A stretch of 64,000 bases of DNA from an uncultured Bacteroidia bacterium. Lineage in GTDB: Bacteria; Bacteroidota; Bacteroidia; Bacteroidales; Prolixibacteraceae. The stretch is taken from the NCBI GenBank assembly GCA_903907075.1, contig CAIVMQ010000063.1, forward strand, positions 1 to 64,000. Reading direction: 5' to 3'. This document shows, piece by piece, positions 15,074 to 39,479 of the stretch. Every line of letters starts with the position of its first letter. Within the stretch, counting starts at the first letter, position 1. The translations under genes were made by a program, and so were the position numbers. Below the pieces are notes generated by a model that was not told the origin of the DNA, searched no databases, and saw nothing but the letters and a program-made list of their open reading frames with translations.

Positions 15074-16795
15074 ATGCGTCATCTGGTATCTGTTTTATTT
15101 CTGTTATTTTCTATTGTTTCTGAGCCTTTTGCTCAAAGTAATCATGACAATTCTGCAATAACTCCCCCGCTAAAACCGCCGTTTTTCTTTGCGGGTGATT
15201 TTGGCGAATTAAGAAGTTCTCATTTCCATTCCGGACTTGATTTTCGTACCCAAGGAAGAACAGGAATAGCTGTTTTTGCCGTTAAAGATGGATATATCTC
15301 CCGGATTGGAATATCCCCTACGGGTTACGGCAATGTACTCTATATGAACCATGGTGATGGAACAACTTCGGTATACGGACATCTGGAACGTTTCCACCCA
15401 AAGATTGAGCTTTATCTCAGAAATGAACAATACGACCGCGAAACATTTCAGATTAACCTTACCCCTTTATCGGGTAAATTCCAATTTAAAAGAGGTGACA
15501 TTATCGCCTGGTCAGGAAATACCGGAAGCTCAGGAGGCCCTCATCTCCATTTTGAAATTCGTGATACCCATTCAGAACAAGCTTTAAATCCGATATTTTA
15601 TAAATTTGGAATCACCGATAATAGTCCTCCAAAAATTATCGCACTTTATGTCTATCCGCAAAACGAAAAAACAACTATTGGTCACGATCGAACGAAAAAA
15701 AGATTCGAAGCCATTGCTGTCCCGGGTGGATATCGATTGAAAAACAACACTCCTTTGGAAATAAATGGAGAAGTAGGATTTGGTATCCAAGCGGAGGATT
15801 TCTTTAATGGAACAGGATTAAAGTGCGGTATTTACTCAGCAATACTCTATGTAGACAAGAAGGAAATGTTTGGTTTTAAGATGGATAAAGTTTCATTCGA
15901 TGATGCCAGGTATGCTAATGCACAGGGTGATTTTGAAGAACATATACTCGCGAATCGTTGGGTTGAACGACTCTTTAAATTCCCTGGTAATTACCTTGCA
16001 ATTTATCATCCCGAAAATAGTACCGGCCTATTAACTATTGAAACTAATCAAAAGCATGAGTGTGAGATCATTGTCACCGATGCCTTTACGAATAAAACCT
16101 CGCTGAAATTCACAACGGCACACAAAAAATACCCCCTCACAGAAACAAAACGTTCTTTTACGCAAGAGTTTTATTTTGACCAGTCTAATATTTTTGAGAA
16201 CGAAAATATTAGAATTAATATGCCCAAAGGGGCACTGTACGAGAATATAAAATTCACATGGAGTTCCGGTATTGTGCCAACCGGATGTTACACTGACCTT
16301 CAACAGGTACATTCGATGTATACCCCCGTACATATTCCCTATTCCTTATCAATCAAGTGCTTGCAAATCCCAGAATCATTACTTGCCAAATCATGCATTG
16401 TTCTTGTGGATCCTATTAAAGGGAAGAAAAGCTCTATTGGGGGAGACTACTCCAATGGTTGGATAACAGCTAAAACAAATTTGTTTGGTAGCTTTTCTGT
16501 TGCTGTAGATCAAACAGCACCACTTATTACTCCATTAAGTATCAAGGAGGGAAAAAATCTTACCGACACAAAAAAAATTCAGTTTCGTATAACGGACAAT
16601 CTTTCAGGAATTAAGTCGTATCGCGGAGAAATTGACGGGAAATGGGTACTTTTCGAATATGATGAGAAATCAGCAATCATAACTTATACTTTTGATAAAC
16701 AGCGCATGACCTTTGGTAAGTCACATCTTCTAAGACTTGTAGTTATAGACAATAGGGACAACAGTTCAGAATATAAAGCAATACTATACAAATGA
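15074..16795 (+). CDS. Exported M23 (LytM-type) metallopeptidase
   Basis: 573 residues. Signal peptide 1-20 (cleavage after PFA). The M23 domain spans about 35-165, with zinc ligands H52 and D56 in HSGLDF, H103 in VYGHL and the HLH of GGPHLHFE at 157-159. All active-site residues are present, so it should cut peptide cross-bridges in peptidoglycan. The remaining 400 or so residues are beta-rich, Ig-like in pattern, and may bind the wall or a partner. A purine-rich AGGG precedes the ATG. Its stop overlaps the anmK start (ATGA), so the two are coupled. Confidence 0.92.
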   Translation: MRHLVSVLFLLFSIVSEPFAQSNHDNSAITPPLKPPFFFAGDFGELRSSHFHSGLDFRTQGRTGIAVFAVKDGYISRIGISPTGYGNVLYMNHGDGTTSVYGHLERFHPKIELYLRNEQYDRETFQINLTPLSGKFQFKRGDIIAWSGNTGSSGGPHLHFEIRDTHSEQALNPIFYKFGITDNSPPKIIALYVYPQNEKTTIGHDRTKKRFEAIAVPGGYRLKNNTPLEINGEVGFGIQAEDFFNGTGLKCGIYSAILYVDKKEMFGFKMDKVSFDDARYANAQGDFEEHILANRWVERLFKFPGNYLAIYHPENSTGLLTIETNQKHECEIIVTDAFTNKTSLKFTTAHKKYPLTETKRSFTQEFYFDQSNIFENENIRINMPKGALYENIKFTWSSGIVPTGCYTDLQQVHSMYTPVHIPYSLSIKCLQIPESLLAKSCIVLVDPIKGKKSSIGGDYSNGWITAKTNLFGSFSVAVDQTAPLITPLSIKEGKNLTDTKKIQFRITDNLSGIKSYRGEIDGKWVLFEYDEKSAIITYTFDKQRMTFGKSHLLRLVVIDNRDNSSEYKAILYK

Positions 16796-17853
16796 GCTAT
16801 TTAGTAATAGGTATAATGTCAGGAACATCGCTTGACGGAATCGATATTGCACTGTGTCGCTTTCACCAATCGAATGAACAATGGAGCTATCAGATCATAG
16901 ATGCCAGAACAATAGAGTACTCTACCGTATGGACCGAAAAACTAACGCAAGCACCAACCTTGGGGGCAGCGGAGTTTTTAAAGCTTCATAACGAATATGG
17001 GAGTTATATCGGCAAGCAAATCAATGAATTCATATATAATAAAGAGAAGCCGGTTATAATTGCGTCACATGGGCACACTATTTTTCATCAACCGGAGAAA
17101 AAATTTACTTTTCAACTAGGTAATGGTGCATCAATAGCTGCAGAAACAGGGATAACAACAATCTGTGATTTTCGAAGCCTGGATATTGCTTTAGGCGGAC
17201 AAGGGGCACCACTCGTTCCTGTTGGTGACAAACTGCTGTTCGGAGAATATAACTATTGTCTTAATATTGGAGGATTTGCAAATATCTCGTTTGAACAACA
17301 TGATAGTCGAATTGCTTTCGATATTTGCCCGGCAAATATCGTTTTAAATGGATTAGCAATGCAATTAGGGGAACCGTTTGACTTAGACGGGCACCTTGGA
17401 GCCTCAGGAAAAATTTCGCGAACCTTGCTGAATCAATTAAATTCGGTACAATATTACCAACAAAAGTATCCTAAATCGCTAGGTCGAGAATGGGTAGATA
17501 AAGAGATCCTTCCCCTTCTTAAGGCTTCAAAACTTTCAGTTGAAGATCAGGCAGCCACATTTTATGAGCATATATCACAGCAAATTGGAACAGCTATAGG
17601 TGACTCGGGGAAACTTTTAATAACCGGCGGGGGTGCTAATAACCTGTTTCTTATCAATCAATTAAAAGAAAAAACGTTGTGCGATATTGTCCTTCCGCAA
17701 AAAAATGTCATTGATTTCAAGGAGGCTTTAATCTTTGCCTTTCTAGGATTACTCACTTTTACAGCAAAAAATAATGTCTTTGCCTCGGCCACCGGTTCAG
17801 TTCGTGACCACTGTGGTGGTGCAATATATCCAATTGGATTAAAAAATGGTTAA
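16792..17853 (+). CDS. anmK: Anhydro-N-acetylmuramic acid kinase
   Basis: 353 residues. The N-terminal GIMSGTSLDGIDIALC is the hallmark of AnmK; SHGHTIFHQP, GNGASIA and the C-terminal TGGGANN nucleotide-binding segment also fit. AnmK opens and phosphorylates anhydroMurNAc from wall turnover to give MurNAc-6-phosphate. Co-translation with the M23 peptidase (4-base overlap) ties wall cleavage to recycling. No murQ etherase is seen nearby. Confidence 0.95.
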   Translation: MSYLVIGIMSGTSLDGIDIALCRFHQSNEQWSYQIIDARTIEYSTVWTEKLTQAPTLGAAEFLKLHNEYGSYIGKQINEFIYNKEKPVIIASHGHTIFHQPEKKFTFQLGNGASIAAETGITTICDFRSLDIALGGQGAPLVPVGDKLLFGEYNYCLNIGGFANISFEQHDSRIAFDICPANIVLNGLAMQLGEPFDLDGHLGASGKISRTLLNQLNSVQYYQQKYPKSLGREWVDKEILPLLKASKLSVEDQAATFYEHISQQIGTAIGDSGKLLITGGGANNLFLINQLKEKTLCDIVLPQKNVIDFKEALIFAFLGLLTFTAKNNVFASATGSVRDHCGGAIYPIGLKNG

Positions 17854-37149: not shown

Positions 37150-37872
37150 TTAGATCGTACTAAAATACTTCTCAGCCTCAAGAAGTTGATCGGGCTTTCC
37201 AAGATCCATCCATAAGCTAGAGTGATCGTGGTAACCGATAATTGGAGTATTCTTGGCAAGACGCAGGTAAAGTGGGATAAGAGGAAAGCTTCCAGATTCT
37301 GATATTAGTTCAAAAATCGCAGGCTCTATAAGCTGAATCCCACTAAATGCGTAAAGCGCAGATTCTTCGTAAGATCTGGAAATAATCTCTTCGCCTGTAT
37401 TACTATTTTTCCATCCAGAGAGTAATAATGCATCGTCGAAGATCAGATATCTGGATGTTTGCCGTGTACGAACAGCGAGCGTTGCCATTCCCCCCATTTG
37501 CAAGTGATATTTTCGAAAACGTTCCAAATCGATATTACTTAATACATCAACATTATAGACCAAAAAAGGTTCGTCACCTTTAAGCCATTGCGCTGCTTTT
37601 AAGATGCCTCCTCCGGTATCAAGTAATTGATCCCGTTCATCGGATATCGAAATAGAGATTCCAAAATTATGATTAGCCTCCAAAAATTGAATAATCTGTT
37701 CCCCGAAATGGTGAATATTAATTACCAATTCAGTATAACCGGCGGCACATAATTTCTCAATTGCGCGCTGCAACAAGCTCTTTCCGGCAACATCAATAAG
37801 AGCCTTAGGACATTGAGCGGTATATGGATAAAGCCTGGTACCCAAACCTGCAGCAAAAATCATAGCTTTCAT
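37150..37872 (-). CDS. MurU-like sugar-1-phosphate nucleotidyltransferase
   Basis: 240 residues, NTP-transferase fold. The N-terminal MKAMIFAAGLGTRLYP and PKALIDVAG form the nucleotide loop; LLDTGGGILKAAQ and VYNVDVLSNID supply the sugar and metal sites. It resembles MurU, which turns MurNAc-1-phosphate into UDP-MurNAc, more than RfbA or GlmU. No acyltransferase domain follows. It is the third gene of a minus-strand cluster after the AmgK-RapZ fusion and the Cys-rich microprotein, supporting an amino-sugar salvage role. Confidence 0.8.
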   Translation of the reverse strand: MKAMIFAAGLGTRLYPYTAQCPKALIDVAGKSLLQRAIEKLCAAGYTELVINIHHFGEQIIQFLEANHNFGISISISDERDQLLDTGGGILKAAQWLKGDEPFLVYNVDVLSNIDLERFRKYHLQMGGMATLAVRTRQTSRYLIFDDALLLSGWKNSNTGEEIISRSYEESALYAFSGIQLIEPAIFELISESGSFPLIPLYLRLAKNTPIIGYHDHSSLWMDLGKPDQLLEAEKYFSTI

Positions 37873-37922
37873 CTTTCAGATTATATCAGATTAATTTCAA
37901 ATAGTCGAAACCAAAAACAGAT

Positions 37923-38045
37923 TTAGATCTCTTTGGGTTTACAGACCTGCTTCTCCTTCATTCCTCTACGGCCACATTTCCTACATTCAAATTTGGCTTC
38001 ATGAGGTTTTTCGTAATCCTCTTTCTTACATCTTTTCTTTGTCAT
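37923..38045 (-). CDS. 40-residue Cys-containing microprotein
   Basis: ATG at 38045 to TAA at 37923. The product is 40 residues, very basic (about 13 Lys/Arg), with a CxxC (C21, C24) in FECRKCGRR, plus C6 and C35. Four cysteines suggest a small zinc-binding knuckle. It starts 6 bases after the AmgK-RapZ stop and ends 50 bases before the MurU-like start on the same strand, which argues that it is a real gene in the operon. Similar small Lys/Cys proteins occur in Bacteroidetes. Function unknown; RNA or protein binding is a guess. Confidence 0.6.
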   Translation of the reverse strand: MTKKRCKKEDYEKPHEAKFECRKCGRRGMKEKQVCKPKEI

Positions 38046-38051
38046 CAGAGC

Positions 38052-39479
38052 TTAAGTATCCTGTTCCCGATGGTGAATAATTGTACGTACGGGAAATTTG
38101 TCAGTTAGAAATTTTTTCATCCGTTCAGCAGCATACACCGATCTATGCTGACCTCCAGTACATCCAAAGCTAACTGCAAGGTGGGTGAATCCACGTTCAT
38201 AATATTTGTTTACACTTCGTTCAACCACTTCAAAGATGGGTTTAAGAAAATCTTCCATATCTGATTCCAGCTCGAAAAACCGAATCACCTCTTGATCTTT
38301 ACCATTGAGAGCCTTATATTCATCATACCTTCCGGGATTATTCACAGAACGACAATCAAAAACAAAGCCTCCCCCATTACCTGACTGATCTGATGGATAT
38401 CCCTTCTTATAAGAAAAACTAGTGATATCGATGGTAAAATCGGTCGATTCTGGAACCCTATAATTAAGAGATGGAGCCTCAGGCAAAGATGATAAAACAC
38501 GCATCAATTCTGGTAAATCAATTGGAATATCTACTTTTTGCAAGACCACTCTTAAATTTTTGAGAGCAAATGGGATACTTTTTAAAAAATGCTCTTTCTT
38601 CTCATAGAAACCTCTAAATCCGTAAGCTCCCATAGCCTGCATCATCCGAATAAGGACGTAGCCAAAGAAATACTCTTTGAAGATTTTTCTATCTACCGGA
38701 TGTAACGTTTCCAATGCATCGAGATAATGATCAATAAGTTCATCACGCACGTGATCCGGTATATCAGCCTTAGAATCGTACAAAAGTGAAGCCAGATCAT
38801 ACTGTAAAGCTCCGCGCCTTCCTCCTTGATAATCGATAAACCACGGTTCATTATCACGAAGCATAATGTTACGACTCTGAAAATCACGAAACATAAAGAA
38901 GTTACTTTCGGCCTGAAGCAGATAGTCGGCAAAAGCGGTAAAATCGTCCTCGAGGAGCTGTTCATTAAACGATATTTTAGCCAGCTTTAGAAAGTAATAT
39001 TTAAAATAATTCAGGTCCCACATCATCGATTGCCGATCGAAAGCGTTTCGGGGATAGCAGAAATTATAATTCAAATCCTTTCCTGCAAGGATCTGAATTT
39101 TAGGTAATTCAAGTACTACCTTGCGGTATATATCTATAATACTCGCTGAAAAACCCTCCTTTTCACGTACTGATGTCAGGAAACTAAAGAGCGTCTCATT
39201 ACCCAAATCTTCCTGGAGGTATACGCAAAGGGATGGATTATAGTCATAAATCTGCGGTACATTAATCCCATTTAAACGGAAATGTTTTGAGAACTCCACG
39301 AAAGCATCGTTCTCTTTAACGTCCTCATTCCAGGTACCAATAGCCATATTATTGGGGCTCGTAAGGCGCAGGTATTCGCGATACGATCCCGATGGAGCTA
39401 AGTTCTCCAGGGTAATATGGTCCTCTTTAAATCTGTTTTTATAAAGTTCGATAATTGCTTGCTGAATTTTCTTTTTCAA
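38052..39479 (-). CDS. AmgK-like amino-sugar kinase fused to a RapZ C-terminal domain
   Basis: 475 residues. The N-terminal 330 or so residues form an aminoglycoside-phosphotransferase-type kinase: Brenner motif with D199 and N204 (FRDFQSRNIM), metal Asp D216 (FIDYQGG), then QYDLASLLYDSKADI, close to the matching part of AmgK (MurNAc/GlcNAc anomeric kinase). Residues about 350-475 are a RapZ C-terminal domain: FSYKKGYP, FVFDCRSVNNPG and GCTGGQHRSV. In E. coli this domain binds glucosamine-6-phosphate. The RapZ P-loop ATPase half is absent. TTG start: an in-frame TAA lies six codons upstream, with no ATG before residue 45. It heads the cluster with the microprotein and MurU-like genes. Confidence 0.9.
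   Translation of the reverse strand: MKKKIQQAIIELYKNRFKEDHITLENLAPSGSYREYLRLTSPNNMAIGTWNEDVKENDAFVEFSKHFRLNGINVPQIYDYNPSLCVYLQEDLGNETLFSFLTSVREKEGFSASIIDIYRKVVLELPKIQILAGKDLNYNFCYPRNAFDRQSMMWDLNYFKYYFLKLAKISFNEQLLEDDFTAFADYLLQAESNFFMFRDFQSRNIMLRDNEPWFIDYQGGRRGALQYDLASLLYDSKADIPDHVRDELIDHYLDALETLHPVDRKIFKEYFFGYVLIRMMQAMGAYGFRGFYEKKEHFLKSIPFALKNLRVVLQKVDIPIDLPELMRVLSSLPEAPSLNYRVPESTDFTIDITSFSYKKGYPSDQSGNGGGFVFDCRSVNNPGRYDEYKALNGKDQEVIRFFELESDMEDFLKPIFEVVERSVNKYYERGFTHLAVSFGCTGGQHRSVYAAERMKKFLTDKFPVRTIIHHREQDT

Follow-up and report, generated by a model that had tools for sequence, protein, structure and literature searches.

A stretch of 64,000 nucleotides from an uncultured Bacteroidia bacterium of the Prolixibacteraceae (GCA_903907075.1, contig CAIVMQ010000063.1; hereafter, the window) encodes a protein in which an AmgK-type sugar kinase is fused to the C-terminal domain of RapZ (hereafter, RZC), with a gene for a MurU-like nucleotidyltransferase located downstream on the same strand. 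Judging from sequence and gene context, this module is very probably a salvage unit for N-acetylmuramic acid (MurNAc), in which the kinase half would convert MurNAc to MurNAc-1-phosphate (MurNAc-1P), the AmgK step, and the MurU-like enzyme would convert MurNAc-1P to uridine diphosphate (UDP)-MurNAc. More tentatively, we propose that RZC is a MurNAc-6-phosphate (MurNAc-6P) phosphatase feeding the MurNAc kinase, a scheme whose catalytic steps, substrate and channelling we infer. In this scheme, RZC would act on the substrate side, with its C-x5-R loop binding a sugar-6-phosphate; it would hydrolyse MurNAc-6P, the product of AnmK, to MurNAc, the step performed by MupP in Pseudomonas, and pass MurNAc on to the 1-kinase to which it is fused. 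The net reaction of the whole protein would then be the conversion of MurNAc-6P to MurNAc-1P. The elements of the module, all on the minus strand, are as follows.

38052-39479, minus strand: open reading frame of the kinase-RZC fusion, 475 amino acids, TTG start
38460..39479, minus strand: AmgK-type sugar kinase domain of the APH fold, residues 1-340 (Pfam APH, NF045759, PDB 3csv)
38868..38888, minus strand: kinase catalytic loop RDFQSRN, residues 198-204, including D199 and N204 (alignment)
38832..38834, minus strand: kinase Asp216 (110/110 aligned kinases)
38052..38459, minus strand: RZC, residues 341-475 plus the stop codon, without the N-terminal P-loop half of RapZ (PF22740, AlphaFold)
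38367..38378, minus strand: inserted NGGG loop, residues 368-371 (G369-G371 in 116/116 rows)
38349..38357, minus strand: D-C-R motif, residues 375-377 (D375 and R377 in 116/116 rows and in 10/10 RapZ-type comparators)
38142..38162, minus strand: C-T-G-G-Q-H-R anion-binding loop, residues 440-446, the C-x5-R form of the protein-tyrosine phosphatase (PTP) P-loop (invariant in 116 rows)
37150..37872, minus strand: MurU-like nucleotidyltransferase (MurNAc-1-phosphate uridylyltransferase; NF045761, PDB 4y7t)

The kinase half matches the Pfam family APH (PF01636) over residues 57-259 with 37.2 bits (cut-off 23.2) and, below the respective equivalog cut-offs of 550 and 500, the AmgK models NF045759 (residues 8-311, 59.2 bits) and NF045698 (residues 58-315, 41.8 bits). 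Its closest structure, by sequence search as well as by Foldseek, is PDB 3csv, a putative aminoglycoside phosphotransferase. R198, D199, R203 and N204 show no variation among the 34 sampled kinases, and in a wider alignment of 110 kinases (the 34 sampled and 76 of the 80 named loci described below), D199 and N204 are each retained in 109, with one gap at each position, whereas D216, presumably the Asp that binds a metal as in APH kinases, is present in all 110. With the APH fold, the catalytic Asp and Asn, and the second Asp, this half is an AmgK-like APH kinase. RZC, in turn, scores 109.6 bits against PapZ_C (PF22740; residues 349-473), four times the cut-off of 27, and its best match in a PDB sequence search is E. 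coli RapZ. The same protein is the top VIA match (5o5q_A, Z 18.8, root-mean-square deviation 1.9 over 125 residues) when RZC is modelled by itself with AlphaFold (mean pLDDT 91.4); the model of the whole fusion has a mean pLDDT of 90.8 and a pTM of 0.70. By both profile score and fold, RZC belongs to the RapZ C-terminal domain family. The window protein is not, however, a full RapZ: the N-terminal P-loop domain is absent, and the NCBIfam RapZ model NF003828 aligns solely through its C-terminal half (positions 155-277 of 278), with 97.2 bits against a cut-off of 244. The MurU-like gene starts 179 bases downstream of the fusion; its product scores 152 bits against NF045761 over residues 1-235 of 240, short of the equivalog cut-off of 250, and is closest in sequence to PDB 4y7t.

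These results bear out the structural claims of a first-pass annotation of the window, made from the sequence alone: an AmgK-type kinase with D199, N204 and D216 in place, joined to a RapZ C-terminal domain without the ATPase half and accompanied by a MurU-like gene on the same strand. In particular, residues 350-475, whose assignment to the RapZ family was one of the points on which that annotation had staked its claim, are placed there by both PF22740 and the Z score to 5o5q_A. The conversion of MurNAc to UDP-MurNAc that it proposed is well supported by context. The record name "RNase adapter RapZ" carried by the fused protein of Parabacteroides distasonis in RefSeq misleads. The same name is attached to RapZ C-terminal domains that lack the ATPase half on actinobacterial plasmids (e.g., L199 and L200); 26 Streptomyces plasmid records match RapZ.

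The fusion is widespread in the phylum; the first-pass annotation had noted that such fusions exist in Bacteroidetes databases. In a sample of 296 Bacteroidota genomes, at least 65 of which belong to a single family (f18), RZC was found in 36. Among the corresponding loci, extracted as stretches of up to 17 kb with the window itself as the 36th, 27 encode kinase fusions, seven encode the kinase, RZC and MurU as separate neighbours, and two (L057 and L060) contain neither partner within the stretch; three of the genes flanking these stand-alone copies were scanned and gave no clue. In none of the 36 loci did a BLASTP search with the N-terminal 150 amino acids of E. coli RapZ find a match (E <= 1e-3). 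Somewhere in each of the 36 genomes, there is a kinase scoring no less than 262 bits and a MurU scoring no less than 194 bits; MurU adjoins the RZC gene in 28 loci, and in 15 of these 28 pairs, the RZC stop and the MurU start overlap or lie no more than 10 bases apart. A second set comprised the best 80 loci of at least 593 matching stretches from named genomes, and the kinase and RZC share a single open frame in 77 of these. Bacteroides timonensis, Phocaeicola plebeius, Prevotella lacticifex and Parabacteroides chinchillae are among the named isolates of the set. MurU is present within the retrieved stretch in 58 of the 80 and absent from it in 22; in 44, it begins on the same strand no more than about 60 bases from where RZC ends, these distances being approximate as they are taken from profile-match starts. 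A domain known from RNA regulation in E. coli is hereby placed inside an apparent metabolic enzyme in named Bacteroides, Parabacteroides, Phocaeicola and Prevotella isolates, among others. Recurrence of the same fusion at this scale rules out chance or an assembly artefact.

The domain architecture varies as well. In one Bacteroidaceae metagenome-assembled genome (MAG), the kinase, RZC and MurU are all encoded in a single open frame (L142:4885-7206), and another locus has RZC-MurU with no kinase match within the retrieved stretch (L141:5980-7100), behind frames that are presumably murC, ftsQ, ftsA and ftsZ. In L074 and L108, the kinase and RZC halves are in different frames, and a Tannerella MAG (L089) carries the fused gene together with MurU. 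A tree of RZC sequences separates the 36 rows from Bacteroidota from eight RapZ rows with support of 100/100. The seven split loci consist of six from one family (f5) and L044; because the f5 rows fall within a clade (96/87) that also contains fused rows, and L044, which has a fused congener (G124), lies outside that clade, splitting or fusing occurred more than once.

In Pseudomonas, AnmK produces MurNAc-6P, MupP removes the phosphate, AmgK phosphorylates C1 and MurU forms UDP-MurNAc, and MupP was sought through its co-occurrence with AmgK and its absence with MurQ, according to PMC5371407, which also reports that murQ mutants of E. coli K-12 accumulate MurNAc-6P. The Bacteroidota module resembles this recycling system, found in Pseudomonas putida, P. 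aeruginosa and Caulobacter, in that an APH-fold sugar 1-kinase adjoins a MurU-type uridylyltransferase and AnmK is present in 25 of the 36 RZC genomes. It differs in that the kinase bears a RapZ C-terminal domain, in that no genome tested reaches the equivalog level for MupP (a cut-off that the Caulobacter control also fails; see below), and in that MurQ coexists with RZC in 17 of the 36 genomes, unlike the either/or pattern described for proteobacteria in PMC5371407.

The distribution of AnmK and MurQ (both at E <= 1e-20; MurU at 1e-30 and the kinase at 1e-10) is compatible with RZC as the phosphatase. AnmK was detected in 206 and MurQ in 211 of the 296 genomes. All 12 genomes with AnmK and without MurQ, which represent six families, carry RZC, as opposed to 13 of the 194 with both and four of the 17 with MurQ alone; the 73 genomes with neither comprise seven with RZC, 64 with the kinase and without RZC, and two without a kinase match. 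The kinase without RZC occurs in 63 f18 genomes, where the matches are weak (72-150 bits; the two remaining genomes of the family, G056 and G288, have no match), and in G009 (368 bits), and none of these 64 genomes contains AnmK or MurQ. A MurU-type match is present in 62 of the 63 f18 kinase genomes. Six f18 loci were opened, and relatives of the NamZ exo-muramidase and of a sodium-solute symporter were found within the stretch in four (L177, L178, L184 and L185); in L177 and L184, the two in which gene order was seen, these genes, identified by their Pfam names, lie directly behind the kinase-transferase pair. MurNAc would be supplied in free form in this way, leaving no 6-phosphate that a phosphatase would have to take off. 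As NamZ is encoded in 286 of the 296 genomes, its presence separates nothing, and only its place in the f18 operons is informative. The MurU-like transferase of L177 includes a hexapeptide-repeat part. For genomes with AnmK and without MurQ, RZC is a candidate MurNAc-6P phosphatase.

The pocket of RZC was examined in an alignment of 116 rows (36 sampled and 80 named; 115 distinct, L045 and L118 being identical) alongside ten RapZ-type comparators, namely, E. coli RapZ, seven other RapZ proteins and two actinobacterial plasmid copies. Residues C440, T441, G442, G443, H445, R446, S447, D375, R377, G369-371, P382, G383 and H470 are invariant in all 116 rows, which rules out a degenerate domain. 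A C-x5-R-S/T loop of the PTP type is therefore present in every row and, as in the Cys-dependent phosphatases, C-x5-R-S sits between a strand and a helix in the AlphaFold model and the alignment. Because the C-T-G-G-x-H-R-S loop is fully kept, the ligand of RZC is likely phosphorylated. D375 is a possible general acid. The second cysteine of the FDCR segment, C376, is kept in 111 of the 116 rows and could form a redox pair with C440.

With RapZ (YhbJ) of E. coli and YvcJ of Bacillus, RZC shares the C-terminal fold, the C-x-G-G-x-H-R-S loop and the equivalents of D182 and R184, and it differs from them in the absence of the N-terminal P-loop domain, in its partner, an AmgK-type kinase, in its clean separation in the tree and in the pocket itself. 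The E. coli pocket is described as comprising H190, T248, G249, H252 and R253, with C247 nearby (PMC5737377, PMC9841335). Four of these five residues are retained in the Bacteroidota domain, but H190, whose replacement by Ala is reported to abolish RapZ function (PMC9841335), aligns with G383 and is Gly in 116/116 rows, as opposed to His or Tyr in the ten comparators; in addition, the GGG loop, located upstream of the H190 equivalent, is missing from 10/10 comparators. The pocket that binds glucosamine-6-phosphate (GlcN6P) in E. coli can therefore not simply be carried over to RZC. The gating of the kinase by GlcN6P that the first-pass annotation had suggested is accordingly not supported as stated, since the E. 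coli pocket on which it rests is altered in every member seen.

The likeness to a PTP loop is in itself not new: the pocket of the RapZ C-terminal domain (CTD) has been compared to the phosphatase loop of Cys-dependent PTPs and hydrolysis of GlcN6P suggested (Khan & Goerke 2020, PMC7199280), and, in a later study, the C247A and C247S variants of E. coli RapZ are inactive and the density in the pocket is interpreted as a likely chemically transformed GlcN6P product (Islam et al. 2022, PMC9841335). What is new here is the setting of this loop beside AmgK and MurU. A search of the open-access literature, with subscription journals mostly outside its reach, returned no paper joining AmgK with RapZ, RapZ with MurU, or RapZ with a Bacteroidota fusion. 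The fusion offers a simple system for asking whether the RapZ pocket binds or hydrolyses its ligand. A broader and more doubtful possibility is that the RapZ C-terminal domain is fundamentally a phosphatase of sugar phosphates, with the Bacteroidota version being the missing MurNAc-6P phosphatase, joined to the MurNAc 1-kinase and in one case to MurU as well, and E. coli RapZ a descendant that relies on this chemistry both to sense and to clear GlcN6P.

Several observations weigh against a phosphatase role of RZC. The fold matches RapZ first and then phosphofructokinase, by Foldseek as well as VIA. No PTP stood out in these comparisons and nothing among phosphatases rose above chance: the listed Foldseek rows include two dual-specificity phosphatases, both only at E over 1, and the VIA matches listed include no PTP, which, being limited to those listed, is no proof of absence. 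A C-x5-R loop is by itself no proof of catalysis, and RapZ, which has this loop too, is described as an RNA-binding sensor. MurNAc is assigned as the substrate from family and context, with both the kinase and MurU under the NCBI equivalog cut-offs. Eleven of the 36 RZC genomes lack AnmK, and seven lack both AnmK and MurQ, with the loop intact in all of these; the 11 AnmK-negative genomes do not follow from a phosphatase activity. As 17 RZC genomes hold MurQ, the two are not mutually exclusive. Furthermore, the association with AnmK and MurQ (Fisher p 5.9e-13, a value inflated by shared ancestry and not leaned on here) backs the whole module rather than RZC alone, and the contrast with genomes that carry the kinase without RZC rests on about two lineages, one family and one genome.

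Other phosphatases also have to be considered. The MupP model NF009696 (equivalog cut-off 359 bits) was run on 63 genomes, consisting of the 36 with RZC, 21 with AnmK and MurQ and without RZC, five of f18 and G009, together with 14 controls. The cut-off was passed by none of the 63 but also by none of the controls, among them Caulobacter, which is credited with MupP in PMC13046382, so that failure to reach it says little. At E <= 1e-10, a MupP-type HAD protein was not found in eight of the 12 AnmK-positive, MurQ-negative genomes, nor in nine of the 21 tested genomes with AnmK and MurQ and without RZC. Weak HAD matches are nevertheless present in 24 of the 36 RZC genomes (12 have none), including four of those with AnmK and without MurQ, and in all six tested genomes with the kinase and without RZC (five of f18 and G009), the best being from f18 at 114 bits; another phosphatase may therefore perform the MurNAc-6P step. 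Overall, the pattern of AnmK, MurQ and HAD proteins fits RZC as the phosphatase and does not single it out.

The chief alternative, which is possible if in our judgement less probable, is that RZC is an allosteric domain that would bind a phosphorylated amino sugar or a UDP-sugar and turn the MurNAc 1-kinase on or off in line with the amino-sugar pool, without hydrolysis. Regulatory domains are commonly fused to their targets, the anion loop is retained in full, and pool sensing could explain the 11 RZC genomes without AnmK. The RapZ-CTD of E. coli is reported to bind GlcN6P with a KD of 10 nM (PMC7073468), but, with the H190 position changed and GGG inserted, RZC need not share the ligand of E. 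coli RapZ. Moreover, RZC is a separate small protein in the split operons (7/36), where gating would therefore need a separate protein-protein contact. A catalytic RZC accounts for the gene neighbourhood at least as well as gating, and, between the two, we lean towards the phosphatase.

It is improbable that the kinase and the MurU-like enzyme act mainly on another sugar, such as N-acetylglucosamine (GlcNAc), glucosamine or another N-acetylhexosamine, for the synthesis of UDP-GlcNAc or glycans. The names of the NCBIfam models give AmgK as a MurNAc and GlcNAc kinase, both proteins fall under the equivalog cut-offs, and the seven RZC genomes with neither AnmK nor MurQ would be consistent with this; set against it are the presence of the module in all 12 genomes with AnmK and without MurQ and the position of the L141 RZC-MurU behind the frames read as murC, ftsQ, ftsA and ftsZ. 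A further counterpoint comes from the fused gene and MurU of the Tannerella MAG, since T. forsythia is reported (PMC5790795) to be without MurA and MurB and yet to have UDP-MurNAc-pentapeptide, which builds up in stationary-phase cells of a murK deletion mutant. Least probable of all, RZC might bind no ligand and serve solely for dimerisation or as a scaffold, or be a relic that binds RNA. This would fit the reported dimerisation and RNA binding of the E. coli RapZ-CTD (PMC5737377, PMC7073468), but would not lead one to expect invariance of C440, H445, R446, D375 and GGG, and at the positions of the E. coli RNA-contact residues K170, R184, K194, R211, R238 and K251 (six tabulated; PMC9841335 gives seven basic ones), the window protein has two Lys/Arg and four changes.

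Two further features of the window are related to the module.

16792..17853, plus strand: anmK, encoding anhydro-N-acetylmuramic acid kinase, the MurNAc-6P source (PF03702, 217.8 bits)
37923..38045, minus strand: mini open reading frame of 40 amino acids between the fusion and murU, Cys-rich (CxxC; ECRKCGRR), with matches in other loci

The first-pass annotation had correctly located anmK elsewhere in the window and considered that two recycling routes might coexist; because the MurQ etherase is also encoded in the window's own genome, they can. The window anmK lies about 20 kb off, and no anmK was seen beside the module among the loci examined. In P. distasonis, a gene of the endonuclease/exonuclease/phosphatase family directly follows MurU (L201:5143-6174), with no BLAST relative at E <= 1e-15 among the other retrieved loci. 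Relatives of the mini open reading frame lie directly behind the fusion at three other loci, L067 (78%), L068 (49%, 35 amino acids) and L091 (55%, 22 amino acids, E 0.008; a partial and weak match). When the genes of the window and 50 stretches were clustered, every non-module family found in at least six stretches was one of f5, although two extended to a single additional stretch each; there were also smaller clusters of mixed origin that spanned four or five stretches.

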